Source of the DNA: a virus
IMG/VR virus record: IMGVR_UViG_3300049893_002452
Span: 1-49,781 of that record
Length of the DNA: 49,781 nucleotides
Direction: 5' to 3' (one strand)
The position numbers and the translations under genes were made by a program. Shown piece by piece: positions 1 to 48,285 of the stretch. The notes below the pieces were generated by a model, which saw nothing but the letters and a program-made list of their open reading frames with translations, was not told the origin of the DNA and did not search any database. Each line of letters begins with the position of its first letter. Within the stretch, counting starts at the first letter, position 1.

Positions 1-465
1 CTACCCGGGCAGCACGGCGGGGAGCTCACCGATGAACCACTCGCTCGTCGCGCGGCAGTTCGGCGTCTCGTAGACCTCGACCTGCACGGTGAAGCACGAG
101 CGGCAGCGGGCCGCGATCGCCTTCGCGATGTGCGCCGCCATGTTCTCGGCGGTCGGGTTGAACGGCACGACGACGATCTCGTCGTCCCTGACCTGCGCGG
201 TCCCCTCCGAGAACACCAGCGCGTCCTGATCGCTCAACACCATGCGGTGATCCCACGGCTCGACGACGTCGTTCAGCAGCTGCTTGCAGACGGAGAAGTC
301 GAGCACGCGACCGACCGCGTCGAGCTTGCCGCCGCTGGCGAACCCCATGCGCAGGACGAACCGATACCGGTGCCCGTGCAGCCGTGCGCACTTCGACTCG
401 TGGCCGACGAGTCGGTGGCCGATGTCGAACTCGACGTCGCGCTCGATGTACTGGACTCCGTTCAT
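1..465 (-). CDS. queD: 6-carboxy-tetrahydropterin synthase (QueD)
   Basis: This 154-residue protein matches the QueD/PTPS family, which turns dihydroneopterin triphosphate (made by FolE) into 6-carboxy-tetrahydropterin, the second step towards 7-deazaguanine. The zinc ligands are His17 and the His30-Gly-His32 pair, and the catalytic Cys26 sits four residues before His30. The C-terminal part has the family pattern PTAEN and an ETP near the end. I chose the ATG at 465 because CAGGAG lies just upstream. An upstream in-frame start lacks a ribosome site. The start overlaps the stop of the upstream dpdA-like gene (ATGA). The stop is the first codon at the window edge, so the gene is complete. It is the last visible gene of the modification operon. 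Confidence 0.93.
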   Translation of the reverse strand: MNGVQYIERDVEFDIGHRLVGHESKCARLHGHRYRFVLRMGFASGGKLDAVGRVLDFSVCKQLLNDVVEPWDHRMVLSDQDALVFSEGTAQVRDDEIVVVPFNPTAENMAAHIAKAIAARCRSCFTVQVEVYETPNCRATSEWFIGELPAVLPG

Positions 466-1373
466 GGCGTGCTCCTGGCGGTCAGGCGCGAGTCGTCGAG
501 CCACCCACAGCGGGCAGCGTGCGCGAGCGCGCGGTCAAGGTCGTCGAGGTGTCCCGGGTTCCCGGTCGTTGCGAGGAACTCGCGCGTGCCGACGTGGACA
601 CGCACGTCGAGGATGTGCCGGACGTACGATCGCATCGTCGCCTCGCACACTTCGTGGTGCTCCTTCCACTCCTCGGGGACGTCGAGCCGCCCCGGGTCGA
701 TGCCGAGCGCGGCGACCGCGCTGCGCACGCGCGCGCGGAACTGCTTGTCCTCGAGCTTCTTGGTCATCGCCGTGCCCTTCGTCCCGAACCAGTCGTCTCG
801 GTAGAACGCAGTCCACTCGCCGGCGCCCAGGTACAGCAGCAGATAGCCGTATTGGGCGGTGTACGCATAGTTCGAGGAATCGCAGGAATACGGCTTGAAC
901 GCTCGGACCATCGCGTGGTTCGTGTACCCCAGCCAGTGAACCCGGCGCCCCGAGGCCCACGTCATCTTCGCCTTCACGTAGGACGCCGGCGCCGAGCCGC
1001 GGTGCGGCCTGCGGAACCCACCGAGCGCAACCCAGGGCGAGGCCGCGAACAGGTCGTTCATCCGCGCCTCGTCGTCGCCGAAGACGTGGATGGGGATCGG
1101 CGCGAGGCCTGCGCCGCGCATCGTCAGCAGGTTCTTCTCCGTCTGCGCCGGGTCTTGCAGCTTGTCGAGCAGCATGTACCCGCAAAGCCGATCGCCGTAC
1201 TTCTCGACGAACTGCATGTAGTCGGGGAGCGCGATCTCCTGCCCGCTGTTGAACGCGGAGAACGCGCCCGAGTCGAGCAGGAGCTCGAAGCGGTCGTCGT
1301 TCGCGACCGCGTCCCACCTCTCGGTGCTCCACTTGCGGGCGTACGCATAGCTCGTCAGCAGCGGGAACTTCAC
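462..1373 (-). CDS. dpdA: DpdA-like 7-deazaguanine DNA transglycosylase, paralog C
   Basis: This 303-residue protein has a tRNA-guanine-transglycosylase-like fold of the type seen in phage DpdA, which exchanges guanine in DNA for a 7-deazaguanine. The conserved LLDSGAF motif (Asp34) matches the TGT DSGGF base-binding Asp, and the SCDS motif about two thirds along matches the TGT nucleophile DC/DS region. LDKLQDP, PIPIHVFGD and GGFRRPHRG are shared with two more copies at 2211-3101 and 3098-3994. The TGT zinc site is not visible. The start is a GTG in a GTGA overlap with yhhQ. In this copy the residue after the second Asp is Ser, where the other two have Cys. The TGT/DpdA fold is well supported, but the exact base inserted is unknown. 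Confidence 0.85.
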   Translation of the reverse strand: MKFPLLTSYAYARKWSTERWDAVANDDRFELLLDSGAFSAFNSGQEIALPDYMQFVEKYGDRLCGYMLLDKLQDPAQTEKNLLTMRGAGLAPIPIHVFGDDEARMNDLFAASPWVALGGFRRPHRGSAPASYVKAKMTWASGRRVHWLGYTNHAMVRAFKPYSCDSSNYAYTAQYGYLLLYLGAGEWTAFYRDDWFGTKGTAMTKKLEDKQFRARVRSAVAALGIDPGRLDVPEEWKEHHEVCEATMRSYVRHILDVRVHVGTREFLATTGNPGHLDDLDRALAHAARCGWLDDSRLTARSTP

Positions 1374-1888
1374 GGCCGATCTTCGGCCTTCGCCGTCCAC
1401 TTCCAGATCGTGTTGACGAGGACGAGCGACCATGCGCCACCGCCGAGGAGCTTCGCCATCGACTGCGACGCGAACACGAGCGGCTCGACGTTGCCGAACG
1501 CGACGGCCTGGAAGACGAGCGAGTCGAGCACGGCCGCGACGACGTTCGCCGCGTTGACCCGCAGCAGCCGGTGCTGGTGGCGCGCAGCGTTGAACGTGAC
1601 CGCCTCGCCGGTGCCTGCGACGAAGAAGGCCGAGAACGAGGCGACGGCGATCGGCACCGCGTCGGTGTTCACGACCGCCGACAACGCCGAGCCGGCGAGG
1701 ATGAGCCCGCCCATGCGCAGCACGAGTCGGTCGCCCTCCCACCGCCGCTGCAGCACGGACCGCAGCGTCATGTCGAACGGGATCAGGACCCAGGCGGTGA
1801 CGGCGAGCGCGGGCTGCCCGTAGTGGGCGACGATCTGGTTCGCGACGACGATGACCAGCAGGTACAGAGCGATCAGCACGTAGCCCAT
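1370..1888 (-). CDS. yhhQ: Queuosine precursor transporter, YhhQ/VUT family
   Basis: This 172-residue hydrophobic protein has about five membrane segments and the YhhQ pattern: an N-terminal ALYLLVIVVANQIVAHYG segment, then IPFDMTLRSVLQRRW, SALSAVVNTDAVPIA, and a late WSLVLVNTIWKW. YhhQ/QPT proteins import preQ0 or preQ1 across the inner membrane. In the operon it sits between the QueD-like gene and dpdA paralog C, with one-base and four-base overlaps, so it is certainly cotranscribed. A salvage transporter beside de novo synthesis enzymes suggests the phage uses both sources of 7-deazaguanine. The family call is firm. The substrate is inferred from the family and the neighbourhood. Confidence 0.85.
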   Translation of the reverse strand: MGYVLIALYLLVIVVANQIVAHYGQPALAVTAWVLIPFDMTLRSVLQRRWEGDRLVLRMGGLILAGSALSAVVNTDAVPIAVASFSAFFVAGTGEAVTFNAARHQHRLLRVNAANVVAAVLDSLVFQAVAFGNVEPLVFASQSMAKLLGGGAWSLVLVNTIWKWTAKAEDRP

Positions 1889-2214
1889 CACGCCTCCACG
1901 ACGGCGCCGTTCTCGCCGTCCTCGTTGACCTCGACCCGCACCGCCTTGAACGCGGTGAGGAGGTGCGCCGCCCATCGCTCGCACGACCACGTCCCGTCGT
2001 CGAGCACCGCCTGGACCCGCGCGATCTCCGCCTCGACCGCTCGGCGCAGCAGGATGAACTCGACGTCGCGGTCGTCGTGGCTGACGGCGACCTCGACGCG
2101 CACGCCGAACCGGTGACGGTGACGCGCTCGCAGGAACGCGACCTCCTCGGGGGCGTCCGGCCAGCGGTGGAACCCCTCGAAGCTCGTCGTGCAGAAGACC
2201 CGCGTGCTGCTCAT
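1888..2214 (-). CDS. QueD-like (PTPS superfamily) protein lacking the catalytic Cys
   Basis: This short 108-residue relative of QueD keeps the zinc-binding His pattern (His16, then HRH at 32-34) and the C-terminal strand-rich part ending in an E-containing VEVNEDG segment. The catalytic Cys that QueD carries four residues before its HGH motif is Leu28 here. It is therefore unlikely to be a normal 6-carboxy-tetrahydropterin synthase, and a true QueD is present at 1-465. Published work on phage 7-deazaguanines names a 7-carboxy-7-deazaguanine decarboxylase, DpdL, which I recall as a QueD paralog. This gene is a candidate for such a role. Start and stop overlap the dpdA paralog B and yhhQ genes. 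Confidence 0.7.
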   Translation of the reverse strand: MSSTRVFCTTSFEGFHRWPDAPEEVAFLRARHRHRFGVRVEVAVSHDDRDVEFILLRRAVEAEIARVQAVLDDGTWSCERWAAHLLTAFKAVRVEVNEDGENGAVVEA

Positions 2215-3101
2215 GGCGTTGCTCCCTCGTGCGCGAGAAGACCGCGGGCCGCTGCGAGGACGATCCCCGCCCGCACCGCCTCGATGTCGCGCCAGTCCTG
2301 CGGTTCGATCGCGAGGAACACGCGCGTCCCGAGCAGGCGCCGCACGTCGAGCGCGTACCACACCCACGACGCGGCGTTCTGCAGGTGTACGCGGTGAATC
2401 TTGTTGACGTAGGACCACGAGTCGCCGCGGTCGTAGTCCGCCGGGTCGAACCCGACCGCCGCAACGGCCGCGCGCAGGCGCCGATGGTCGTACCCTCCGA
2501 CCGTCTTCTTCGCGTCCCACTCCGCGCGCGTCAGCACGATCATCTTGCCGCCGCCGACGTAGATGTGCATCTGCCCGTACATGCGGCCCGACCCGAACGA
2601 CGCGCAGTCCACCGAATACGGGCGGAACGCCTTGATCATCGACAGGTCGGTGTACCCGAGCCAGTGAACCTTGCGACCCGCGGCCCAGGTCATCTTCTCC
2701 TTGACGTAGGCCGGCGGGGCCGCTCCTCGGTGGGGACGACGGAACCCTCCGAGGGCGACCCATTCGGAGAGCTCGAACAGCTCGTCCATGCGGGCCTGCG
2801 TGTCGCCGAAGACGTGGATGGGGATCGGCCGCAGCCCGGCGTCGTGCATCGTCCGCAGGTTCGCTTCCGTCGTCACCGGGTCCTGCAGCTTGTCGAGCGC
2901 CATGAAGCCGAGCAGGCGGTGACCGTGCGTCGCGACGAACTGCATGTAGTCGGCGAGCTTGATCTCGTCCCCGCTGTTGAACGCGGTGAAGGCCCCGGAG
3001 TCCATCAGCAGTTCGAGCCGGTCGTCGTTCAGCACGTAGTCGATGTGCTCCGGGGTGCAGCGCCGGATGTACGCATACGAGAAGAGAATCGGCACCTTCA
3101 C
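2211..3101 (-). CDS. dpdA: DpdA-like 7-deazaguanine DNA transglycosylase, paralog B
   Basis: This 296-residue TGT-fold protein is a clear paralog of the copies at 462-1373 and 3098-3994. Asp34 lies in MDSGAFTAFNSG (base-binding site). LDKLQDP, PIPIHVFGD and GGFRRPHRG follow in the same order, and SVDCASF holds the presumed nucleophile Asp. The central HWLGYTDLSMIKAFRPYS block is nearly the same as in paralog A. The GTG start overlaps the stop of paralog A (GTGA). It should act on phage DNA after replication. Whether the three copies differ in sequence target, in the base used, or form a hetero-complex cannot be told from sequence alone. Confidence 0.85.
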   Translation of the reverse strand: MKVPILFSYAYIRRCTPEHIDYVLNDDRLELLMDSGAFTAFNSGDEIKLADYMQFVATHGHRLLGFMALDKLQDPVTTEANLRTMHDAGLRPIPIHVFGDTQARMDELFELSEWVALGGFRRPHRGAAPPAYVKEKMTWAAGRKVHWLGYTDLSMIKAFRPYSVDCASFGSGRMYGQMHIYVGGGKMIVLTRAEWDAKKTVGGYDHRRLRAAVAAVGFDPADYDRGDSWSYVNKIHRVHLQNAASWVWYALDVRRLLGTRVFLAIEPQDWRDIEAVRAGIVLAAARGLLAHEGATP

Positions 3102-3994
3102 GGGACGTTCCCCTCGAGGAGCCCGCAGCCGTCGGCCCAATCGATCGCATCGCGGATGGCGTGCAGATCCTGCTCGTCGGGGAGCATCGCGATGAACAGG
3201 CGCGTGCCGATCTTCGCGCGAACGTCGAGCACGTAGCGAACCCAGGCCCGCGCGTTGAGCCGCTGCACCCGGTTCATGTACTGGACGTTCCTCCACGACT
3301 GCGTGTCGTCGAACAAGTCGGGATCGAGCCCGTGCGCGGCGACGAGCGCGCGCAGCCTGCGGTGGCCCCCGGGCAGCGCCTTGATCCCGTTGCCCGCCTC
3401 CCACTCGCGGTAGGTGAGCTCGACCATCTGCCCCGCACCGACGTACAGGTGCATCTGCCCGAACGTGCGCCCCGCCGTCCACGATGCGCAGTCGCACGAG
3501 AACGGCTTGAAGCTCTTGATCATGTCGAGGTCGGTGTAGCCGAGCCAGTGAACGTCGCGACCGGCGGCCCACTCCATCTTCGCCTTGATGTACGTGCGCG
3601 GTGCGCTGCCGCGGTGCGGTCGCCGGAACCCTCCGCACGCGACCCAGCGCGACCGCTCGAACAGCCAGTCCATGCGCGCGCGGTCGTCACCGAAGACGTG
3701 GATGGGGATCGGGTGCAGGCCTGCGTTCAGCATGTCGCGCAGGTTGGCGTCGGTGCGCACGGGGTCCTGCAGCTTGTCGAGGGCCATGTACCCGAACAGG
3801 CGCGACGACCACGTCCCGAGCCAGCTCATGTACTCGTCGAGCTTGATCTCGGTGCCGCTGTTGAACGCCGTGAACGCGCCCGAGTCCAGCAGCACCTCGA
3901 CGCGCGGGTCGCCGAGCATGTTCTCGATGTGGGCCGCGTCGTACTTGCGCAGGTACGCGAACGACGTCAGCAGCGGCACATGCAGCCGAGGCAT
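3098..3994 (-). CDS. dpdA: DpdA-like 7-deazaguanine DNA transglycosylase, paralog A
   Basis: This 298-residue protein is the first of the three DpdA-like paralogs in transcription order. Asp37 in LLDSGAFTAFNSG matches the TGT base-binding Asp. LDKLQDP, PIPIHVFGD, GGFRRPHRG and HWLGYTDLDM follow, and SCDCASW carries the presumed nucleophile. It lies directly after the ParB-like gene with a one-base TGATG overlap, and its end overlaps paralog B. The length is uniform among the three copies, so none looks like a decayed fragment. The protein should join in replacing guanine in DNA with a 7-deazaguanine. Confidence 0.86.
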   Translation of the reverse strand: MPRLHVPLLTSFAYLRKYDAAHIENMLGDPRVEVLLDSGAFTAFNSGTEIKLDEYMSWLGTWSSRLFGYMALDKLQDPVRTDANLRDMLNAGLHPIPIHVFGDDRARMDWLFERSRWVACGGFRRPHRGSAPRTYIKAKMEWAAGRDVHWLGYTDLDMIKSFKPFSCDCASWTAGRTFGQMHLYVGAGQMVELTYREWEAGNGIKALPGGHRRLRALVAAHGLDPDLFDDTQSWRNVQYMNRVQRLNARAWVRYVLDVRAKIGTRLFIAMLPDEQDLHAIRDAIDWADGCGLLEGNVP

Positions 3995-4671
3995 CAGAAC
4001 GCCTTCGCGACGTACTTGAACCCCGCGTTCGAGAGCACGTCGTTGACGACCTGCAGCACGCGGTCCCTGTCCGCCGCCGTGATCTTCTCGATCTTGAGCA
4101 CGAACGTCTCGTCCGCCGGGTCGTAGTCGGGGATCTCATCGACGTTCGCTGCGCCGTCGGTCGCCCATGCGTCCGAGGTCAGCTTCATCAGCGCCTCGAT
4201 CTCGTTGTCGCCGAAGCCGAGCAGCTGCGCGTCCCTGGGGTCGTCGTACGCGGCGATCAACGAGGCGAGCTCCCGTTCGTCCCAGGCCGCCAGCTCGCCG
4301 AGCTTGTTCGCAGCGAGCGCGAGCTTCTCCGCGACCGCGCGCGAGACGTCGACAAGCCGCACCGGCACGCGCATATCGCCGCCGGCGATGCGCTTGGCGT
4401 CCGCCGACCACCGTGCGCGGTCCTCGTCCTTCTCGGCAGCCCACAGCGCGGGCAGGCGCAGCGCGCCCTTCAAGCGCGTGTGCCCCGAGATCACCATGCG
4501 ATCCTCGCGACGTGCGACGATCACGTCGCCCCATCCGAGCTCGATGATCGAGCGCGCGACGCGGTCGACCGCGTGGTCGTTGATTCGCGGGTTGCGGTCC
4601 CACGGGACGAGCGACCCGATGTCCGCCCACTCGGCAGCCGACTCGGCCGCCTCGGTCTTCTTACCGGCCAT
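3994..4671 (-). CDS. ParB/Srx-like nuclease-fold protein of the modification operon
   Basis: This 225-residue protein has an N-terminal ParB/sulfiredoxin-like domain: PWDRNPRIND, then IIELGWGDVIVARRED and the ISGHTRLKGALRL box that corresponds to the ParB GEHR-type nucleotide-binding motif, followed by a helical part with LALAANKLGELAAWDE. Such domains are common next to or fused with phage DNA-modifying enzymes. In bacterial dpd clusters the DpdB partner of DpdA is also described as ParB/DndB-like with NTPase activity, so a helper role for the DpdA-like enzymes is plausible but not shown. Its start overlaps the folE stop by 11 bases, and its stop overlaps dpdA paralog A. Confidence 0.75.
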   Translation of the reverse strand: MAGKKTEAAESAAEWADIGSLVPWDRNPRINDHAVDRVARSIIELGWGDVIVARREDRMVISGHTRLKGALRLPALWAAEKDEDRARWSADAKRIAGGDMRVPVRLVDVSRAVAEKLALAANKLGELAAWDERELASLIAAYDDPRDAQLLGFGDNEIEALMKLTSDAWATDGAANVDEIPDYDPADETFVLKIEKITAADRDRVLQVVNDVLSNAGFKYVAKAF

Positions 4672-5269
4672 GCAGCACCTCTCGCGCGCGGTTCGACAGC
4701 TCCCAGAACTCGGCCCTGATCTCGTGCTCGCGGAACCTCCCGAGCAGCGCCTCGGTCGCCATCGGCGCGCGGACGCCGACCCCGCGACACGCCATGCAGG
4801 AGTGCTCCGCGACCACGCGGACGCCGACCCCTTGCGCGTTCGTCGCCTCGGCGAGCGTGCGCGCGATGTCGTTCGTCAGCCGCTCCTGCACCTGCAGCTG
4901 CCGCGAGAGGTGGCGCACGAGACGCGGGATCTTCGAGGCGCCGACGATGACGGAGTTCTGCGCGGCCGGCAGGTACCCGACGTCGGCCGTCCCCGAGAAC
5001 GGCAGCATGTGGTGCTCGCACATGGAGGTGAACGGGATGCCGCCGATGACGATGATCTCGTCGTACGCGATGTCGAACCCGTCCTTGCCCTCGCTGGTCT
5101 TGAGCAGCGCGCGCGCGTTGCCGTCCATCCCGACCAGCATCTCGCGCCACGCGCGAGCGACGCGCTGTGGCGTTCCGCGCAGGCCTTCGCGATCGGGGTC
5201 CTCTCCAAGCGCGATCAGGAACTCACGCACCGCGGCCTTCGCGCGGACCTCATCGTACATCGTCTGCAT
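4661..5269 (-). CDS. folE: GTP cyclohydrolase I (FolE)
   Basis: This 202-residue enzyme converts GTP to dihydroneopterin triphosphate, the entry step of 7-deazaguanine synthesis. The zinc and catalytic motifs are intact: SMCEHHMLPF, then VGYLPA, ASKIPRLVRHLSRQLQVQERLT, and HSCMACRGV with the last zinc Cys. Length and motif order fit the type IA family. The ATG at 5269 shares a base with the queE stop. A second ATG nine bases later is possible. The gene is translationally coupled to queE upstream and to the ParB-like gene downstream. Confidence 0.96.
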   Translation of the reverse strand: MQTMYDEVRAKAAVREFLIALGEDPDREGLRGTPQRVARAWREMLVGMDGNARALLKTSEGKDGFDIAYDEIIVIGGIPFTSMCEHHMLPFSGTADVGYLPAAQNSVIVGASKIPRLVRHLSRQLQVQERLTNDIARTLAEATNAQGVGVRVVAEHSCMACRGVGVRAPMATEALLGRFREHEIRAEFWELSNRAREVLHGR

Positions 5270-5940
5270 CAGGGCATCCCCACGAGCTTGTGCGACTGGA
5301 CGGACACGCGCGCACCGAGACGTTCGGCACGCGCGACGGTGTGGGCGAGGGTCGCCCGGCCGGCGTCGCCGCCGACATCCATCGGCTGCAGGTACAGGTG
5401 TTCGAACCCGCCCGCCAGTTCGAGGATCTCCTCGTCGGTGAACGGCGACGGGCAGATGACCTTGAGGTCGGTCCCCTCGCGCAGCTTGACGTGCTCGACC
5501 CCCGAGATGCCGATGAGCGGCTTCGGCGAGACGGTGACGTGGTCGAGGCAGGCGAGCGCCGAGTGCATCGTCTCGGGGTCGGTCGTCCCGTTCGTCTCGA
5601 TCGCGATGTCGACTTCCTGCTTGACGAGCTCCCCGAGGAACTGGAAGCCAGCCTGCGTCCGCAGCTGCAACGTCGGCTCGCCGCCGGTCAGCACGACGAC
5701 CGGCCGCTTCATGCCGGCGCCGACCTCGAGCACGCGCGCGACGAGCGCCTGCGGCTCGAACGGGTCGCCGCTGGCGAACTCGGTGTCGCACCAGCGGCTG
5801 CACTCCCCCTTCCCCTGCCCGCGGTGTTCCGCGAGCCCTGACCAGAGGTTGCAGCCAGCGAATCGCACGAAGACCGCGGGCTGTCCGGCGCGCGACCCCT
5901 CGCCTTGGATGGTTCGGAACACCTCTCGTACCCGTAGCAT
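5269..5940 (-). CDS. queE: 7-carboxy-7-deazaguanine synthase (QueE), radical SAM
   Basis: This 223-residue radical SAM enzyme makes 7-carboxy-7-deazaguanine from 6-carboxy-tetrahydropterin. The N-terminal EVFRTIQGEGSRAGQPAVFVRFAGCNLW signature, here at residues 6-33, the LTGGEPTLQ motif, IETNGT and SPKP are all typical. The cluster cysteines are spaced CX16CX3C (Cys29 onward, ending CSRWCDTEF). From memory the extended QueE motif is CX14CX2C, so the loop is longer and the middle Cys is shifted by one. The ATG at 5940 follows GGAGG at a good distance. It is the first gene of the tightly overlapped modification operon. Confidence 0.93.
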   Translation of the reverse strand: MLRVREVFRTIQGEGSRAGQPAVFVRFAGCNLWSGLAEHRGQGKGECSRWCDTEFASGDPFEPQALVARVLEVGAGMKRPVVVLTGGEPTLQLRTQAGFQFLGELVKQEVDIAIETNGTTDPETMHSALACLDHVTVSPKPLIGISGVEHVKLREGTDLKVICPSPFTDEEILELAGGFEHLYLQPMDVGGDAGRATLAHTVARAERLGARVSVQSHKLVGMP

Positions 5941-6250: not shown

Positions 6251-6602
<352 letters not shown>

Positions 6603-7933: not shown

Positions 7934-8302
7934 TCAGATCAGCACAAGTCGTGGAGCGATGTCGTACGGCGGATCGAACCCGTGATCCCTGCTCCACAGG
8001 AGGCGGGCGTTCGTTCGAGCAGCAGCGGGCGGTCGCGACCCTTCGAGCACCGCGCGCAGGGTCGTGGAGACGTCGTCGTTGTCGATCGCGCGCGTCGCGT
8101 ACCACTCGCGCAGTTCGTCGGGGAGCAGCGGCCAGCGACGCGCCCACGTTCGGAGCCGCCCGACGTCGTACTCCGAGATCGCATCGTGCCCTCGCGCCGC
8201 GCCGGCGAGTGTTTCGAGCAGCGAGCCGACGGGCTCCCACTCGATCAGATCGCCCAGCGGCGCGACTTCAAGCGACAGCAGAACGAGGGCTTCGGGGCTC
8301 AT
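7934..8302 (-). CDS. Hypothetical protein, 122 residues
   Basis: I do not recognise this mostly helical protein, which starts MSPEALVLLSLEVAPLGDL and contains a WARRWPLLPDELREWYATR segment. The Trp/Arg-rich middle and the ordered C-terminal strand (IAPRLVLI) suggest a folded globular protein. Its ATG overlaps the stop of the cysteine-cluster gene upstream (ATGA), so the two are coupled. Confidence 0.55.
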   Translation of the reverse strand: MSPEALVLLSLEVAPLGDLIEWEPVGSLLETLAGAARGHDAISEYDVGRLRTWARRWPLLPDELREWYATRAIDNDDVSTTLRAVLEGSRPPAAARTNARLLWSRDHGFDPPYDIAPRLVLI

Positions 8303-8736
8303 GCGCTCGCCGAGGCCTCGTGCTCGTCACGCGAGACGACCCGCCCGTCGGGGAGGTGAACCCGCAGCACGACGCCGTCGCGCAGCACCGAGACGGGGAA
8401 CTGGCGGGCGACCGCGGCGAGCAGCTGCGCACCGCGACCGGACTCGCTCGCGCCAGCGCGCACCTCGAAGCACCGCGCGACCTGTGACCCCTTCGCGCCG
8501 TTCGCGATGTCGAAGACGACGCCGGCGTGGTCCGGTCGGTCGGCGACACCGAACGCCCCGAGGAGCCAGAGACACTTGAACCCGACGCAGGACGTCGGCC
8601 GCAGCTGGTAGATCGAGCAGCGCCTCGTTCCCGGGCGCAGCTTCGAACACGCCGTTCCGCACGGCTTCCCCAGGTCGTCGACCGCGACGACGGTGCAGCA
8701 GGCAGCACATTCCGAACACTTTCGTTCCTTTGACAC
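8299..8736 (-). CDS. YkgJ-like cysteine-cluster protein
   Basis: This 145-residue protein has an N-terminal cysteine cluster, CSECAACC, followed by CGTACSKL, a Cys in RRCSIYQLRPTSCVGFKCLW and one more later. This is the pattern of the YkgJ family of putative metal-chelating proteins (Fe or Zn). I chose the GTG at 8736 because AGGAGG lies six bases upstream of it. An in-frame ATG 21 bases earlier would place the same AGGAGG inside the coding region. The role in the phage is unknown. Redox or metal handling is the family-level guess. Confidence 0.7.
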   Translation of the reverse strand: MSKERKCSECAACCTVVAVDDLGKPCGTACSKLRPGTRRCSIYQLRPTSCVGFKCLWLLGAFGVADRPDHAGVVFDIANGAKGSQVARCFEVRAGASESGRGAQLLAAVARQFPVSVLRDGVVLRVHLPDGRVVSRDEHEASASA

Positions 8737-8831
8737 CTTGAACCTCCTTTCTGACATGGATGGTGTTTCCCTTTGCGCTTCGGCCCCGTACACCGCGCGG
8801 GCGGCTGGGGGGCTACCCTCGCCCCGGAGAA

Positions 8832-8879: not shown

Positions 8880-10355
8880 CTACATCACCCCCTCGCCCAG
8901 CGCCTTGCCCTTGTCGGTCGCGCGGTCGAGGTCGACGACCTCGGTGCAGATCGCCTTCACCGCCGGGCTGGTCGACCCGCCGTTGACGATCACACCGAAG
9001 ACGCGCAGGCCCTTCGCCTTGGCGGCCTCGAGCTCCGCGAGCACGCTCGGGCTGACCGCAGCCTGCCCGTCGGTCACGAAGATGAAGTCGGCCCGCTCCT
9101 CGCGCAGCCCGCACTCCAGGGCGAACCGCACCGGGCCGTCGAACGACGTGCCGCCGTGGACGTTCCGGCCGGCGACGCGCAGGACCACGTCGGCGACGCC
9201 GCCGATCGGCTTCCACTGGTCGGGCCGCGGGTACGACTCGCGACCCCGGCCGTCGTGCGCGACGTAGCCCTTGCCGCTCGCGTCGATCCGCTCGGCCGAG
9301 GTGACCTGCGTGTCGAAGCCGATCACGGTCACCGCGCGCTTCTCCTTCGCGCCCTGCCCGACGGCGGCGATCGCCACCGCCGAGGCCCACATCAGCGGCT
9401 CGCCGCTCATCGAGCCCGACTCGTCGACCATGACGACGATCGGCCCGCGGCCCTGCGGTTCCTTGCCCTCCAGGCGGTACTGGACCGCGGTGCGCTCGAC
9501 GATGTCGCGCAGCATCAGCAGCCGCGCCTTGGGGTGCCGCAGCCGCGCCATCTGCGCGGGCAGGATGCGAGCGACGTCGCCGCCGCGCTCGATGTCCACG
9601 ACCTCCTCGCGCGCGTGGACGTTGCGCACCTTGTTCTTCTTGGAGGCGATGCGCGCGATGCGACCCGCACGCTTGAGCACCTCCCGCAGCGACGGGTCGT
9701 TCCGCAGCCGCTCCGCGAGCTGCATCCGGCGGGCGTCGCCCTGCTCGTGCTGCGGAGGCGCGCTCTCCAGACCGGGCGCCAGACCGCCGAGCGCGGTGCG
9801 CATCTCGTTGACGTCCTCGGCGGCGCCGCGGGCAGCAGCGCGGATCGCGGCGCGCATCCGGTCCTCCGAGGTCGGCGTCCCCTCGTCGGCGCCACCGTTC
9901 TCCTCGTTCGCCTCCATGTCCTTGAGGAGCTCGGGCAGCTTCGACGCGATGCGGTCGACGATCCCCTTGCTCGCGAGGGCGGCGAAGTCGGCATCGCCGC
10001 GGACCGACTGGCGCAGCGTCTCGAACTCGGCCATGCCGTCGATCAGGTCGTGAACCTTCGACATCCACGCCGGCCCCTCGGGGTCGTCGAGCTTCTGCGG
10101 GTCGTTGTACAGCCGGGCGAACACCTCACCGCCGAACTCCTCGGCGGCGCCCCAGTTCTCGCCGCGGCGGGCTTCGTGCGCGCCAGGGTCAACGTCGTCG
10201 CCGTCGAGCACGCGCTCGATCTGACCGACGCTGCAACGCAGCGGGCGGCTCGCTTCCAGACGCTGCGTCCAGAGGTACCGCTGCCAGCGCGACACCTCGA
10301 AGACGTGGCGCTCGTGCTCGGCGGTGTAGGCGGCGGCGGTGCGGGCTGCGGACAT
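8880..10355 (-). CDS. VWA-domain protein (ViaA/CoxE-like), MoxR partner
   Basis: This 491-residue protein has a helical N-terminal two thirds and a C-terminal von Willebrand A domain. The MIDAS motif VVMVDESGSMSG is near residue 308, the later Thr is in HGGTSFDGP, and the Asp is in FIFVTDGQAAV. The metal site looks intact. Such proteins work with MoxR/RavA AAA+ ATPases as chaperone-like pairs, and a MoxR gene is close upstream at 10605-11759. The ATG at 10355 is preceded by GGAGG. The gene has its own copy of the palindromic promoter element. Its target in the infected cell is unknown. Confidence 0.88.
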   Translation of the reverse strand: MSAARTAAAYTAEHERHVFEVSRWQRYLWTQRLEASRPLRCSVGQIERVLDGDDVDPGAHEARRGENWGAAEEFGGEVFARLYNDPQKLDDPEGPAWMSKVHDLIDGMAEFETLRQSVRGDADFAALASKGIVDRIASKLPELLKDMEANEENGGADEGTPTSEDRMRAAIRAAARGAAEDVNEMRTALGGLAPGLESAPPQHEQGDARRMQLAERLRNDPSLREVLKRAGRIARIASKKNKVRNVHAREEVVDIERGGDVARILPAQMARLRHPKARLLMLRDIVERTAVQYRLEGKEPQGRGPIVVMVDESGSMSGEPLMWASAVAIAAVGQGAKEKRAVTVIGFDTQVTSAERIDASGKGYVAHDGRGRESYPRPDQWKPIGGVADVVLRVAGRNVHGGTSFDGPVRFALECGLREERADFIFVTDGQAAVSPSVLAELEAAKAKGLRVFGVIVNGGSTSPAVKAICTEVVDLDRATDKGKALGEGVM

Positions 10356-10372
10356 GACGACCTCCGAGGACC

Positions 10373-10401
10373 AAGGTACACCCGCCCGGGGTACGGGAGA
10401 A
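10373..10401 (-). promoter_or_regulatory. Palindromic promoter element, copy 2 (VWA gene)
   Basis: On the minus strand there is a -35 TTCTCC, a 17-base spacer and a -10 TACCTT. The core GTACCCCGGGCGGGTGTAC (10376-10394) fills the spacer and overlaps the -10. The start codon is 18 bases downstream of the -10. Confidence 0.75.
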
Positions 10402-10434
10402 CACCCGCGGGCAGATTTCTTTCAAGCGGCCGAG

Positions 10435-10602
10435 CTACCGCAAGAACGCGGCGAACGCCGCTCGCCAGCCGCGCGAGTACACGGACCACGCGACCGCGCA
10501 GGCGAGCACCGCGACGAACGGTGCGAGCCCCAGCGCGTGCCGCGCGGTGCTGTTCGGCACCGCGGCGGCGAAGGCTTCGGAGAAGTGCAGAAGGGCTTCC
10601 AT
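10435..10602 (-). CDS. Small single-pass membrane protein
   Basis: This 55-residue protein starts MEALLHFSEAF and has one long hydrophobic segment (about residues 24-41, from HALGLAPFVAVLACAVAWSV) and a basic C-terminal end. The ATG lies two bases after the moxR stop. It sits between moxR and the VWA gene, so it may anchor or guide that pair at the membrane. That is inference from position. Confidence 0.55.
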   Translation of the reverse strand: MEALLHFSEAFAAAVPNSTARHALGLAPFVAVLACAVAWSVYSRGWRAAFAAFLR

Positions 10603-10604
10603 GA

Positions 10605-11759
10605 TCAGAACCCGAACCGCTTGGCCATCTCGCGCCCGATCTGGCCCTGCATCGCGGCGACCCGGTCCAGAACCTGCGTCACCGCAGCGGTCTGGCGAAG
10701 GCGCTGGAGCTCGGCGATCTGCTCGCGGAGCGTGGTGTTCGCGACCTTCGCGCGCTGCGAGAACGCGGCGTCGTCGGTGACCTTGAAGTCGACCGACCCG
10801 TGCGCCTCGACGGCGGCGTCGAGGATCGCCATCGCGCGGGCGAGATCGGGGTTCGCCTTCGCTGCGATCGTCTGGTAGATCGGCGCGCGCTCCTCGGGCT
10901 TGTTCCACAGCGCGTCCGCGAGCACGAGCAGGTCGTCGCCGGTCGCAACGGTGCGCCCGCACAGGACCGCGTGCGCCTGGACGAGCTTCATGCACTTGCC
11001 CCAGCGGCGGTCGCTCGGCACGATCCCGTGCGCCTGGGCGAGCTCGTCGCGCACGTCGAGGATGATGTCGATGACGCCCGAGAGGTCGACCTGCTCGCGC
11101 ATCGCGCGCAGTTCGGCAACCTGCTCGCGCGAGAGGCGCGTCGCGATCTTCGGAGCGGACCCGCCGAGGAGCAGCGCGCGCAGCTTGTCCCGGTCGTGAA
11201 TGTACGCGACCCAGCGGCGCAGCATGAACCGGTCGTACAGCGCCTCCAGCCCGTCGTCCGCGGGCAGCTCGTTCGACGCGCCGATCGCCATCTGCAGCGG
11301 GATCTTGACGCGCTGACCGCCGTTGTCGAACACGCGCTCGTTGAGCGCGGTCAGCAGCGCGTTGAGGATCGCGCTGTTCGCCTTGAAGATCTCGTCGAGG
11401 AAGGCCACCTCGGCCTCGGGGAAGTAGCCGCGGGTGACGCGGCGGTACTCATCGCGCTCCAACCCCTGCAGCGAGACGGGGCCGAAGGGCTCCTCGGGGA
11501 CCGTGAAGCGCGTGAACAACAGGCCGAAGTACGACGCGCCGAGCGCATCGGAGAAGGCGTTCGCCAGCGCGCTCTTGCCGGTGCCCGGGGGGCCCAGCAG
11601 GAGAACGTGCTCGCCGGCGATGAGCGCGACGAGCAGCGCGCGGATCTCCTCGTCGCGCTCCATGAACGCGCTCGCGAGAGCGCGACCGAGGCGCTGCGCC
11701 GCGTCGACGGCGTCCTGCTGCTGGGTCGAAAGGGGAAGAACCTGGGCGAGAGCGGTCAT
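10605..11759 (-). CDS. MoxR/RavA-family AAA+ ATPase
   Basis: This 384-residue protein has Walker A GPPGTGKS at residues 56-63, Walker B VAFLDEIFK near 118-126, sensor-1 AIGASNELPADD and the arginine-finger region DRFMLRRWVAY, all typical of the MoxR clade. The C-terminal third is helical. MoxR ATPases act with VWA proteins in chaperone-like or metal-insertion roles. The VWA partner is encoded downstream at 8880-10355. The ATG at 11759 is preceded by GGAGG, and a palindromic promoter element lies about 40 bases upstream. Confidence 0.9.
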   Translation of the reverse strand: MTALAQVLPLSTQQQDAVDAAQRLGRALASAFMERDEEIRALLVALIAGEHVLLLGPPGTGKSALANAFSDALGASYFGLLFTRFTVPEEPFGPVSLQGLERDEYRRVTRGYFPEAEVAFLDEIFKANSAILNALLTALNERVFDNGGQRVKIPLQMAIGASNELPADDGLEALYDRFMLRRWVAYIHDRDKLRALLLGGSAPKIATRLSREQVAELRAMREQVDLSGVIDIILDVRDELAQAHGIVPSDRRWGKCMKLVQAHAVLCGRTVATGDDLLVLADALWNKPEERAPIYQTIAAKANPDLARAMAILDAAVEAHGSVDFKVTDDAAFSQRAKVANTTLREQIAELQRLRQTAAVTQVLDRVAAMQGQIGREMAKRFGF

Positions 11760-25845: not shown

Positions 25846-25912
25846 CTGATCCTCCAGCGTTGCGCGTGGACGCGCTGGCGATCAACCGCCTGCGCTGGAG
25901 GTACGGTATCAG
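25846..25912 (-). promoter_or_regulatory. Three-way-junction leader that buries a ribosome binding site
   Basis: In the minus-strand RNA between the phospholipase stop and the next ATG, CTGAT pairs with ATCAG, and CCTCCAGCG (25893-25901) pairs perfectly with CGCTGGAGG (25851-25859), which contains the GGAGG site. Inside are two hairpins: GGCG/CGCC (25877-25890) and GCGCG/CGCGC (25862-25875). The TGA in the outer CTGAT is the upstream stop codon. This fits termination-coupled translation or a temperature-sensitive switch. Confidence 0.65.
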
Positions 25913-26787
25913 GACTCGCGAGGCGTTGCACCGTTTGCGGTCGTCCAGATCGGTTCGCGTGCCATCTCCTCGCCGATGACGTGGAGCCTGCGCGCGATCG
26001 TTGCGCGCGACGCATCGAGCATCGGTCCCGGGTCCTGGCGCGGGGCACGCACGCGCACGTCGACACCGGACGCGGCCAGCGCCTTCAACGTCTCGAAGTC
26101 CCCGCGCGCGGGCGCGTGCGTCCCCTTGTCGGCGGCGAGCAGCAGCCTCTCGATGCGTCCGTCGACCTGCTTCGCGGTGTGCATGATGACGCCGGGTTCG
26201 AGCGGATGACAGAAGATCGCGTCGACGCGGTCGCCGGGTTTCACCCACGACGGAACGGGGGGGCAGACGTGCTCGTGTCCGCCGTCACCGGCGATCGAGC
26301 GTGCGGCGTTCCACGTCACCGGGATGCCGGCGAACATGCCGCAGATCGCGGCCGACGCCAGCACGCCGTCCTCGAGTTCGACTCGATGGTTGTCCGGCCC
26401 CTGCGAGGTCCACGTCGGCACGACGTGTAGGTCCGACTCGGGAAGCCAGATGCCGGCGCCGAACCGGGTCCGCAGCTTCTGCGTCTTGACTTCCCGCTCG
26501 ACAAGCTGTTCACGCAGCGGGTCGAGCGACCAGAACCCGTCCTTCGCGAGCGGCGTCGCGCGCAGGAACCCTCGCACGCCGTTGATCGGGTTCGGGTCGT
26601 CGAGCGCGGTCCAGATCTCGACAAGCTCGTCGATGCGGTTCTGCGCGACCATGACGCCGTTCACGGCGCCGACGCTCGTTCCGCGGATCTCGTCAGGTAG
26701 CCGACCCATCTCGTTGAGCAGCGCACGGATCGAGGCGATCTGCACCGCCCCCTTGAACGCGCCGCCGGACAACAGCAGGACGTGCAT
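25909..26787 (-). CDS. Patatin-like phospholipase
   Basis: This 292-residue protein has the patatin plan: an oxyanion loop GGAFKG (residues 8-13), nucleophile Ser38 in GTSVGAVNG, a mid-protein ASAAICGMFAGIPV block and the catalytic Asp168 in IAGDGGHEH. Both dyad residues are present, so it should hydrolyse lipid acyl esters. No signal peptide or membrane segment is seen. The ATG at 26787 follows GAGAGG at a better distance than the GTG two codons earlier. It lies near holin-like genes, which makes a role in lysis or membrane attack possible. Confidence 0.85.
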   Translation of the reverse strand: MHVLLLSGGAFKGAVQIASIRALLNEMGRLPDEIRGTSVGAVNGVMVAQNRIDELVEIWTALDDPNPINGVRGFLRATPLAKDGFWSLDPLREQLVEREVKTQKLRTRFGAGIWLPESDLHVVPTWTSQGPDNHRVELEDGVLASAAICGMFAGIPVTWNAARSIAGDGGHEHVCPPVPSWVKPGDRVDAIFCHPLEPGVIMHTAKQVDGRIERLLLAADKGTHAPARGDFETLKALAASGVDVRVRAPRQDPGPMLDASRATIARRLHVIGEEMAREPIWTTANGATPRES

Positions 26788-26808
26788 GAGCACCTCTCGC
26801 CGCCGAGT

Positions 26809-44933: not shown

Positions 44934-47564
44934 TTACCGCGGTGCGGTCAACACCGGCGGGAACTCGGGGAGCGGCTCGACCGACCGCCCAGCACGCCGC
45001 GCGATCACCTTCGCAGGCGGCGCCTCCTCGTCGAGGAACGCGGCGACCTTCGCGGCGAGCGAGTAGAACTGGTGCCCCTCGACGAGACGTTCGAGGCACG
45101 CATCGAAGTTCGCGCGCGCGAGCCGCAGATGGTGGTACCCGAGCTCCTTGAACGGCAGATAGCTCTGCCCCGCGCAGGCGACCGCACGCTCGTAGCACTC
45201 GACCGCCTCGGCTTCGTGGCCGTCGTTCGCGTAGTGCCAGCCGAGCGACACCCACGCTCCGGGGTTGTGCGGGTCGTCGGCGAGATCGAGACGGAGCAGC
45301 CGCTCGTACTTGTCGAGCTTCTCCTCCATGCGCGAGGCGTCGAACGCCATGCCGCGGTGCTGGACGACGAACGGCGCGTACACGAGCCGCGGGTGAACCC
45401 CCTTCGCCTGCAGCGCCTTGACCGCGTCGCCGAACCCCTCGTGCACGCGACCGTTCATGCGCATCGACTTCTCCGGGTCGAGGCGCGACAGCCGCACGCT
45501 GTCGCTGACCGTCGGCGTGTCGCCCGGGCGGTAGTTCGCGACCTGCATCATCCAGCCGTGGCGCGTCGACTCGGCCATCCTGCGGATCGCGATGGCGTCG
45601 CCGTACGGGTCAGCGAACCACTCGTCGGGGTCCATGAACCACGCGAACGACATCGGGATCTCGGCGCCGGCGAGCGCGGCGATGCCCGCGTTGCGAGCAC
45701 CGGCGAGATCGTCTTCGAGCGGCTGGTGAACCCACTCGGCGCCGAACAGGCGCGCGATCCGCATGAACAGGCTGCTCGGTCCGGTCGCGTGCTCCGCCGT
45801 CGAGTCGAGCGACGAGAGCTTGTCGCGCTCGGCCCACTCCCCGGTCCACACGAGCACGCGCACGTCGCAGAGCGTGTGCGTCAGGTCGAGCCAGCGCGCG
45901 ACGTCGTCGGCGTTCTCGCGCTCGTACACGAGCTGGTGGAAGCCGATCCGCTGCAGCGGGTTGAGCGCGCTGACCTTCATCCCCTCCTCGACGACGGCGA
46001 CGCCACCGCGCCGTGCTTCCCGGTCTTCGTGGCGCATCGAGCCCATGCGGATCAGCCGCACCGCGGCGACGCGCACCGCCTCCTGACCGTGGACCGGTCC
46101 GAACGCGCAGACCTGGGGACCGTGGACCGGGACGCGACGTCCGAAGTTCACGCGCCAGACGCGACCGCCGTGCGGGCCGCCGCGCCACGACCCGCCGTCG
46201 CCATAGGGCGGATCGTCGCGCAGCAGACGCGGCGAGTCCCAGGCGGTCTGCAGCGCGACGTCCAGGCAGCGGACGGTCGGGTCCGGGTGCGCCAGCATGC
46301 GACGCAGAACCTTCGCGCCGACGTGGGGCTCCAGCATCTCGTCCTGCTCGACGGCGAACACCCAGGTCGCGCCCGACTCGCGCGCGCGCACGAACATCGA
46401 CGCGCGCTCGGCGCCCTCGTCAGGGTCGCCCTCCCACACCGACGCGAACACAGGGATCGTCGTCCCGATGCAAGCGCCGGCCCACACCCCGAACGCCTGC
46501 GCGACTCCCATCGCGTCCGCGTTGTTGATCCCGCGCAGGAACTCGAGGTCGGACTTCTCGAACGGTCCGCCGCCGTTGTTGTGCGCGAGCAGCGCGCGCT
46601 GGAACTCGGCCTCGTTCTGCATGTCGAGCGGGTTGTTCCGCAGCAGCAGCACGACGCCGTCGACGACCGACCCGAGCTTGCGCAGCACGAGTCGGAGCAG
46701 GTTCATGTCGCGCAGGCGGGACATCGTGACCCGCATGACGGCGAACAGCTTGTGCTCCGCGGCGAAGGTCAGCGCCGCGTGCTTCTCGTAGAACGCGAGC
46801 CGAGCTTCGGCCTCGCCGGGAGCCCAGGCCCCGAGCGGAACCTGCAGCGTGCGCCCGACGTAGACCGCCTCGGCGAGCGCGGCCCGGCGGCCGGCGATCT
46901 CCAGGCGGGTCGCGATGTCCTGCCAGCACCACTCCCCGAGGCCGGCGTCAACAACCGACCCGTCCGGGTCGCTGCTGATCAGCACCTCGATCGACTCGCG
47001 ATCGAACATGACGCACCAGCCCTCGATCACGTCGGCGACGCTGACGAGCCCGCTCATCTGCGCGATGCGCTCGGCGACGTAGCGTTCGAGCCCGAGCCGC
47101 GACTCCTCCGCGGTCAGGTCGAGCTTCTGCGACGGGTTGTTCGTCTGCTCCGACACCGCGCCGACCATTCCGATCGGGCCGTACGACTCCGGGCTGATGA
47201 CGACCTGCGGCCCCGACTGCAACCCGTTCGGCTTGAACGCGGCGATCATCTCCTCGGCCCAGCGCGTACCGACCCGCACGTCGGCGCGTACGAGCGCCAC
47301 CCAGGGCGTCACGCCGTTCTCCATCGCGCGGTCGACCGCTGCTGCGAGCGCGCCGATCTCCGATGCGCCGTCGGACAGCGTGAACTCGGTCGTCATCGAC
47401 GACACCATCGCGGCGCCGTCCTTCCGGTTCCACGCGACCGCGATGCGCGTCCTCTCCCGGTCGGTCGAGGCTGCAACGTGCGCGACGGCGTCGGCCACCT
47501 CATACGGGTCCGAACCACCCCACACGATCACGGTCAGGTCATGCTCGTTGTCGATCTTCGTCAT
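44934..47564 (-). CDS. Large multi-domain glycosyltransferase with TPR repeats
   Basis: This 876-residue protein has an N-terminal GT2-like domain (VIVWGG, RADVRVGTRW, GMVGAVSEQ, GWCVMFDRE, GEWCWQDIATRLEIAG; about residues 10-230). A second GT-type region spans about 350-690 (WVFAVEQDEMLEPH, RNAGIAALAGAEIP, AWFMDPDEWFADP). TPR-like helices close it (WVSLGWHYANDGHEAEAVECYERAVA). DxD-like motifs are present in both. It probably transfers sugars to virion protein or to a cell-surface target. It lies between virion genes. The ATG at 47564 and a GTG one codon earlier both sit near GGAGG. A longer upstream frame has no good start. Confidence 0.85.
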   Translation of the reverse strand: MTKIDNEHDLTVIVWGGSDPYEVADAVAHVAASTDRERTRIAVAWNRKDGAAMVSSMTTEFTLSDGASEIGALAAAVDRAMENGVTPWVALVRADVRVGTRWAEEMIAAFKPNGLQSGPQVVISPESYGPIGMVGAVSEQTNNPSQKLDLTAEESRLGLERYVAERIAQMSGLVSVADVIEGWCVMFDRESIEVLISSDPDGSVVDAGLGEWCWQDIATRLEIAGRRAALAEAVYVGRTLQVPLGAWAPGEAEARLAFYEKHAALTFAAEHKLFAVMRVTMSRLRDMNLLRLVLRKLGSVVDGVVLLLRNNPLDMQNEAEFQRALLAHNNGGGPFEKSDLEFLRGINNADAMGVAQAFGVWAGACIGTTIPVFASVWEGDPDEGAERASMFVRARESGATWVFAVEQDEMLEPHVGAKVLRRMLAHPDPTVRCLDVALQTAWDSPRLLRDDPPYGDGGSWRGGPHGGRVWRVNFGRRVPVHGPQVCAFGPVHGQEAVRVAAVRLIRMGSMRHEDREARRGGVAVVEEGMKVSALNPLQRIGFHQLVYERENADDVARWLDLTHTLCDVRVLVWTGEWAERDKLSSLDSTAEHATGPSSLFMRIARLFGAEWVHQPLEDDLAGARNAGIAALAGAEIPMSFAWFMDPDEWFADPYGDAIAIRRMAESTRHGWMMQVANYRPGDTPTVSDSVRLSRLDPEKSMRMNGRVHEGFGDAVKALQAKGVHPRLVYAPFVVQHRGMAFDASRMEEKLDKYERLLRLDLADDPHNPGAWVSLGWHYANDGHEAEAVECYERAVACAGQSYLPFKELGYHHLRLARANFDACLERLVEGHQFYSLAAKVAAFLDEEAPPAKVIARRAGRSVEPLPEFPPVLTAPR

Positions 47565-47592
47565 CACAGGCACCTCCAGGGCGTCGCGGTCC

Positions 47593-47621
47593 CGTGTACC
47601 ACGAGGACCGGCACCCGTGCG
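47593..47621 (-). promoter_or_regulatory. Degenerate palindromic promoter element (glycosyltransferase)
   Basis: Minus strand core GTGCCGGTCCTCGTGGTAC (47596-47614) with -10 TACACG. It keeps the 19-base length but has GTGC for the first GTAC. A plus-strand -10-like TATGCT (47627-47632) for the next gene lies nearby. Confidence 0.4.
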
Positions 47622-47649
47622 AGGGGTATGCTTCGTGCGGAGGTGGTCG

Positions 47650-48285
47650 ATGTCGATCACGTTGCTCGCCGACAGGCTCGTGACCGTGCAGCGCCGCACG
47701 GCGTTCGTGCTCGACTCCACGACGGCTGCCGCGTCGCTTGCAGCGTCGCGCGCGATCGTCGCGCCAGGGAACATCGAGGTGCGCGTCAAGGGCGGCACCT
47801 CGAACACCGGCACCGTCACCGTCCACGGCACCGTCAACGGGGCGCCGGACTCCGAGACGTTGACCTTCACGAAGGCCGACGTGCTCGTCACCAGCAAGCG
47901 GTTCTCGGCGCTCGACCCCGTCGCGTTCACGACGACCGGCCTCGCCGACGAGGCAACCCCGCCGACGGTCGAGGCGATGCTCGTCGGCAGCGACGGGTCG
48001 CGCATCCACACGCGGTCGACCCTCGTGTCGTCCTGGCCGATGCGCATGGACCGCGGATCGGTGTCGTCGCCCGTGTACCGGCAAGGCGCTGCGGACGTCG
48101 AGAACACGCGCTTCTACATCGACTTCACGACGACGTGGGACCCGCGCGACAACGACGTGTTCGTCGACGAACGCACGCTGGAGGAATGGTACGTCGCCGG
48201 TGCTCCGACGCTGCACGGGCAGTCGACAACGCCGCATCATTGGGAGGTTCGCGTCGATCGGCGCGAGGGGTCGACGACGACCTAA
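47650..48285 (+). CDS. Head-closure/head-tail joining-like protein, plus strand
   Basis: This 211-residue protein starts MSITLLADRLVTVQRRT. The N-terminal half is an Ig-like or adhesion beta domain (IEVRVKGGTSNTGTVTVHGTVNG). The C-terminal half resembles phage head-tail joining proteins: FYIDFTTTWDPRDNDVFVDERTLEEWYVAGAPTL with a closing HHWEVRVDRREG. The ATG at 47650 follows GGAGG. It is read opposite to the flanking structural genes, together with the next gene. Function inferred from the C-terminal pattern and location. Confidence 0.6.
   Translation: MSITLLADRLVTVQRRTAFVLDSTTAAASLAASRAIVAPGNIEVRVKGGTSNTGTVTVHGTVNGAPDSETLTFTKADVLVTSKRFSALDPVAFTTTGLADEATPPTVEAMLVGSDGSRIHTRSTLVSSWPMRMDRGSVSSPVYRQGAADVENTRFYIDFTTTWDPRDNDVFVDERTLEEWYVAGAPTLHGQSTTPHHWEVRVDRREGSTTT

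Follow-up and report, generated by a model that had tools for sequence, protein, structure and literature searches.

The window analysed here, 49,781 nucleotides of an uncultivated tailed phage (IMG/VR record IMGVR_UViG_3300049893_002452), carries at positions 1-5940 an operon of nine overlapping genes on the minus strand. In the direction of transcription these encode a QueE-like radical SAM enzyme (7-carboxy-7-deazaguanine synthase; 5269-5940; phrog_2076, E = 3e-32), the GTP cyclohydrolase I FolE (4661-5269; PF01227, E = 4.5e-56; phrog_2197), a ParB-like protein that by synteny is a dpdA neighbour in many relatives (3994-4671; phrog_620, E = 2e-26), DpdA copy C (3098-3994), DpdA copy B (2211-3101), a small QueD-fold (PTPS-like) protein of 108 residues (1888-2214; phrog_17812, E = 1.8e-26), a Vut_1/YhhQ-type 7-deazapurine transporter of 173 residues (1370-1891; PF02592, E = 1e-8, above the cut-off; phrog_4899), DpdA copy A (462-1373) and the 6-carboxytetrahydropterin synthase QueD (1-465; PF01242, E = 1.6e-25; phrog_2389), whose stop codon is the end of the contig. 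At every junction the genes overlap by a few bases or share start and stop codons (GTGA, ATGA, TGATG). The first-pass annotation had described three DpdA genes in one overlapping operon with 7-deazaguanine synthesis genes. The Pfam and PHROG matches of QueE, FolE and QueD bear out this gene context, and B and C do overlap; the three dpdA genes are not contiguous, however, as the QueD-like and transporter genes lie between B and A. Just upstream of the operon, a coding-like region contains a simple repeat of the GTGTCG/TPTPTP type (about 6402-6472).

The three DpdA-type proteins are full-length, with open frames of 303 (A), 296 (B) and 298 (C) residues, and share the motifs DSGAF, LDKLQDP, PIPIHVFGD and GGFRRPHRG exactly. 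Pairwise identities of 61% (B-C), 49% (A-C) and about 53-56% (A-B) exclude assembly duplicates as well as chance frames. PHROG 887 (queuine tRNA-ribosyltransferase), which also matches the known phage DpdAs retrieved for comparison, recognizes them at E values of 1e-19 to 1e-25 (A 7.7e-26, B 1.1e-19, C 1.4e-24). An independent profile built solely from seven Queuovirinae-type phage DpdAs matched exactly A, B and C among the 461 open reading frames of the window at 1e-16 to 4e-19 (A 3.5e-19, B 1.4e-16, C 8e-19) and had no match in reversed-sequence controls. The structure of copy B was predicted with a mean pLDDT of 92, and its best viral matches in BFVD come from phages and carry the annotation queuine tRNA-ribosyltransferase, TGT or DpdA. 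The proposed DpdA identity is thus upheld, at about 25% identity to the DpdAs of named phages. Comparisons with cellular TGTs gave nothing significant: Pfam TGT (PF01702) did not match the three copies at E values up to 1, hhalign against four TGTs aligned just the DSGG/DSGAF stretch without significance, and the top 50 Foldseek matches in the PDB were other TIM barrels. The link to TGT therefore rests on the DpdA literature, in which phage DpdA inserts preQ0-type bases into DNA (PMC6884629) and carries a conserved histidine, position 196 in phage 9g, that is absent in DpdA2. All three copies have the conserved histidine and catalytic aspartates of DpdA1-like phage DpdAs; H149 (copy C numbering) was equated with His-196 of 9g, and the aspartate columns with the catalytic aspartates of TGT, by alignment and literature alone.

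In an alignment of 82 sequences, D37, D73, H149 and D168 are invariant in every full-length copy (H149 and D168 in 82/82, D37 in 79/79 of the sequences covering each position). Because every intact copy keeps all four, an arrangement of one catalytic and one dead subunit appears unlikely. The residue after D168 is serine in 72, cysteine in 9 and threonine in 1 of the 82 sequences. Among the window copies it is serine in A (SCDSSNY) and cysteine in B (SVDCASF) and C (SCDCASW), a difference beside the presumed nucleophile that had been taken as a sign of divergent activity. This argument does not hold, since cysteine also follows D168 in phages with a single dpdA (our loci L015, L017, L025, L027 and L028), and the DS/DC difference therefore says little. 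We also compared the N- and C-terminal identities of paralog pairs with those of non-paralog pairs of equal N-terminal identity. The C-terminal part evolves faster in all pairs, with no extra divergence in the paralogs; B and C even retain a C-terminal identity of 0.51, above the expected value of about 0.36. Hyperdivergence of this region was accordingly rejected as evidence for different targets, and we see no sequence sign that the targets have diverged. Nor was decay of the window copies seen.

How unusual are three copies? In tblastn searches of 50,697 phage records, DpdA queries hit one place in almost every record (79/79 and 166/166 records with a single place; 310 places in 307 records; 303 places in 300 records), in line with the expectation that phages usually carry one such enzyme. 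When 50 records were scanned in full with the family profile, none had three full-length copies, and in those with three profile matches the second copy is split. No other phage record examined has three intact copies. Multiplicity itself is not unique, as two intact copies occur in a cultured phage, Microbacterium phage Nicole72, and in several IMG/VR contigs; tandem dpdA pairs were found in L019, L021, L037, L045, L082, the L012 group and Nicole72. For Microbacterium phage Megan, the BFVD annotation likewise names two transglycosylases. Two further candidates were discarded: L158 holds a single frameshifted gene, and gp81 of Arthrobacter phage Sonali (1999-2616 in L115), annotated as queuine tRNA-ribosyltransferase, falls in phrog_15826 (unknown function) instead of DpdA and is probably misannotated. 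Strict pattern scans of IMG/VR with the three-copy alignment or a single copy returned no relatives; those discussed here came from scans with wider alignments. A literature search, which did not reach a 2023 NAR study of DpdA subfamilies, found no account of multi-copy DpdA, and a scan of genome contigs gave three distant matches (32-33% identity), none pointing to a host.

The closest relatives are the L012 group, four IMG/VR contigs of the same sequence (L012, L013, L014 and L016) with the same gene order as the window, shared tail genes and dpdA genes orthologous to A and to B/C. In the tree, window A pairs with L012 copy 1 as its sister (support 99/77), while B and C fall with L012 copy 2 (97/84), so the A and B/C lineages are older than the split between the two phages. 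Both products of an old duplication (A versus B/C) were thus retained, and a later one (B versus C), which may fall on either side of the divergence from L012 (98/61), added the third copy. In all four contigs a tandem duplication of 26 nt (L012, about 10194-10245) throws copy 2 out of frame, which might represent a loss that has become fixed or a switch that can revert; copy 2 is therefore dispensable in the closest relative. Within each of L037, L045, L082 and Nicole72 the two copies are sisters (support at least 100/95), and the L019/L021 and window/L012 pairs occupy separate parts of one clade. By this tree, tandem dpdA duplications arose independently at least six times.

The second peculiarity of the operon lies between B and A. 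FolE, QueD and QueE together make 7-carboxy-7-deazaguanine. The model of the QueD-like protein adopts the QueD fold (TM 0.79 against E. coli QueD), and the alignment retains the H...HxH metal-site pattern and a conserved glutamate; the catalytic cysteine and Asp-His of QueD are absent from all aligned phrog_17812 members. We tallied 98 non-redundant loci that have DpdA together with two or more pathway genes: QueC occurs in 72, the QueD-like protein with the Vut transporter (phrog_4899) in 18, neither in 8 and both in none. The cassette replaces QueC in the window (1370-2214), L015, L018-L021, L024, L026-L028, L128-L139 and L155, and this mutual exclusion suggests a different final base. The QueC carriers L012, L022 and L025 nest inside a clade whose remaining members have the cassette; the exchange has thus taken place repeatedly. 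Acidovorax phage ACP17, Cellulophaga phage phiST, Chryseobacterium phage MA9V-3 and Faecalibacterium phage Roos encode the QueD-like protein and have no QueC over their whole records. We infer 7-carboxy-7-deazaguanine as the substrate of the phrog_17812 protein, which would probably strip it of its carboxyl group and so yield 7-deazaguanine. The 2023 study, on further deazaguanines and DpdA subfamilies, reportedly found dDG and dCDG in phages and named a decarboxylase DpdL, to which phrog_17812 might correspond. The absence of QueC from the present record is uninformative, as the contig stops at QueD, which QueC follows in L012. Among the window proteins searched, which did not include all small open reading frames, tail and replication genes were found and terminase, portal and capsid had no match, and in the relative G005 some 34 kb separate QueC from the gene that matches window 44934-48047. 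The record is thus incomplete, and QueC may lie just past the contig end.

The locus thus belongs to a familiar type, the DpdA deazaguanine operon of phages, and is unusual in holding three intact transglycosylases; the phage systems published so far have been described with a single one. Phages 9g, CAjan and Rosebush (Hutinet et al. 2019, PMC6884629) share the DpdA family, the FolE, QueD and QueE genes and the conserved His/Asp motifs, but they have one copy at about 25% identity, whereas the window has three together with the QueD-like and Vut genes, and QueC is not seen in its record. Mycobacterium phages Bipper and Typha resemble the window in carrying ParB, DpdA, QueD, QueE and FolE without QueC, yet have one DpdA, again at about 25% identity; for Bipper, 7-carboxy-7-deazaguanine has been suggested as the base (PMC6884629). 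Nicole72 has intact DpdA paralogs (genes 2 and 4) beside ParB, QueD, QueE and FolE, as Megan may by its BFVD annotation, but its duplication is independent, with two copies, QueC and no QueD-like/Vut cassette. The L012 group differs from the window in its frameshifted second dpdA and in having QueC in place of the cassette.

Why would a phage keep three such enzymes? In the scheme we propose, FolE, QueD and QueE would supply 7-carboxy-7-deazaguanine, its conversion to the final base would fall to the QueD-like protein, a further enzyme or both, and the Vut transporter may provide precursors. The DpdA enzymes would exchange guanine in the phage DNA for this base and so confer resistance to restriction. 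All three copies are expected to be catalytically active. Each may have been retained because its target guanines lie in sequence contexts that differ from those of the other copies and overlap them in part, which would extend protection over more of the genome. An active modification operon whose DpdAs are kept by such a partition of sites is the reading we favour, at a little short of an even chance; activity, DNA as the target and the reason for retention are all inferred. It is consistent with the family membership and operon context of the copies, two lineages predating the phage split, the conserved catalytic residues, the recurrent pairs, the insertion of preQ0-type bases by phage DpdA (PMC6884629) and the site specificity of CAjan DpdA for GA/GGC (PMC8306585); the lack of paralog-specific C-terminal divergence and the broken copy 2 of L012 speak against it. 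So does phage Orion, in which DpdA is present and the DNA is unmodified; dpdA alone does not prove modification. In a stronger version, which we regard as possible if rather unlikely, each DpdA would serve one motif of its own or, should QueC be located just outside the contig, one base of its own. Such separately addressed deazaguanine marks in one phage would be the transglycosylase equivalent of several methyltransferases.

The main rival, close behind site partition although unlikely in itself, is gene dosage with birth and death of copies, in which all do the same job and the extras speed or densify modification until they are lost. The repeated independent duplications, the decayed copy in the L012 group, the like catalytic motifs and the absence of paralog-specific divergence favour it, but A and B/C, at about 50% identity and older than the window/L012 split, would have been retained for a long time under pure redundancy. 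Considerably less probable is the use of different bases, with preQ0 as the substrate of one copy and the product of the QueD-like and Vut genes as that of another. The operon does look as though the L012 order (QueE-FolE-ParB-DpdA-DpdA-QueD-QueC) had been combined with an L015-type PTPS-like/Vut cassette, and QueC could sit just beyond the contig end; against this, the record lacks QueC, no locus of the 98 combines both cassettes, and tandem pairs occur with either alone. TGT enzymes are dimers, and by analogy with eukaryotic QTRT1/QTRT2 the paralogs might be distinct subunits of one obligate hetero-oligomer, whose assembly tandem and translationally coupled genes would favour. We consider this improbable, given the intact catalytic residues of every copy, the single intact copy retained by the L012 phages and the one copy of most phages. 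Action on tRNA, as the database annotation queuine tRNA-ribosyltransferase would have it, is hardly credible in view of the missing Pfam TGT match, the grouping with phage DpdA and the finding that 9g DpdA modified DNA and failed to replace tgt (PMC6884629).

The recurrent duplications and the three copies here allow the determinants of DpdA site choice to be addressed directly, through paralogs that share a genome, and having three copies in an otherwise known anti-restriction system could reveal what need a phage has for several. The cultured two-copy phage Nicole72 makes the question of site choice testable at the bench, and the QueC-excluding cassette suggests that the final base differs throughout a whole clade of uncultivated phages. 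What can be read directly from sequence is three intact family members, their catalytic positions, their operon and their phylogeny.

Other genes of the window deserve mention. Among the tail-side genes, the product of 25909-26793, which has no PHROG match, resembles patatin-like phospholipases in its LSGGAFKG and GTSVG motifs. A MoxR-like ATPase (10605-11759; phrog_19600) adjoins a protein with DESGSMSG, typical of VWA domains (8880-10355), and the gene pair (8880-11759) resembles MoxR-VWA pairs, here in a phage genome. At 8299-8757 lies a gene for a small cysteine-rich protein (CSECAACC...C) resembling zinc/iron-chelating proteins of the YkgJ type.
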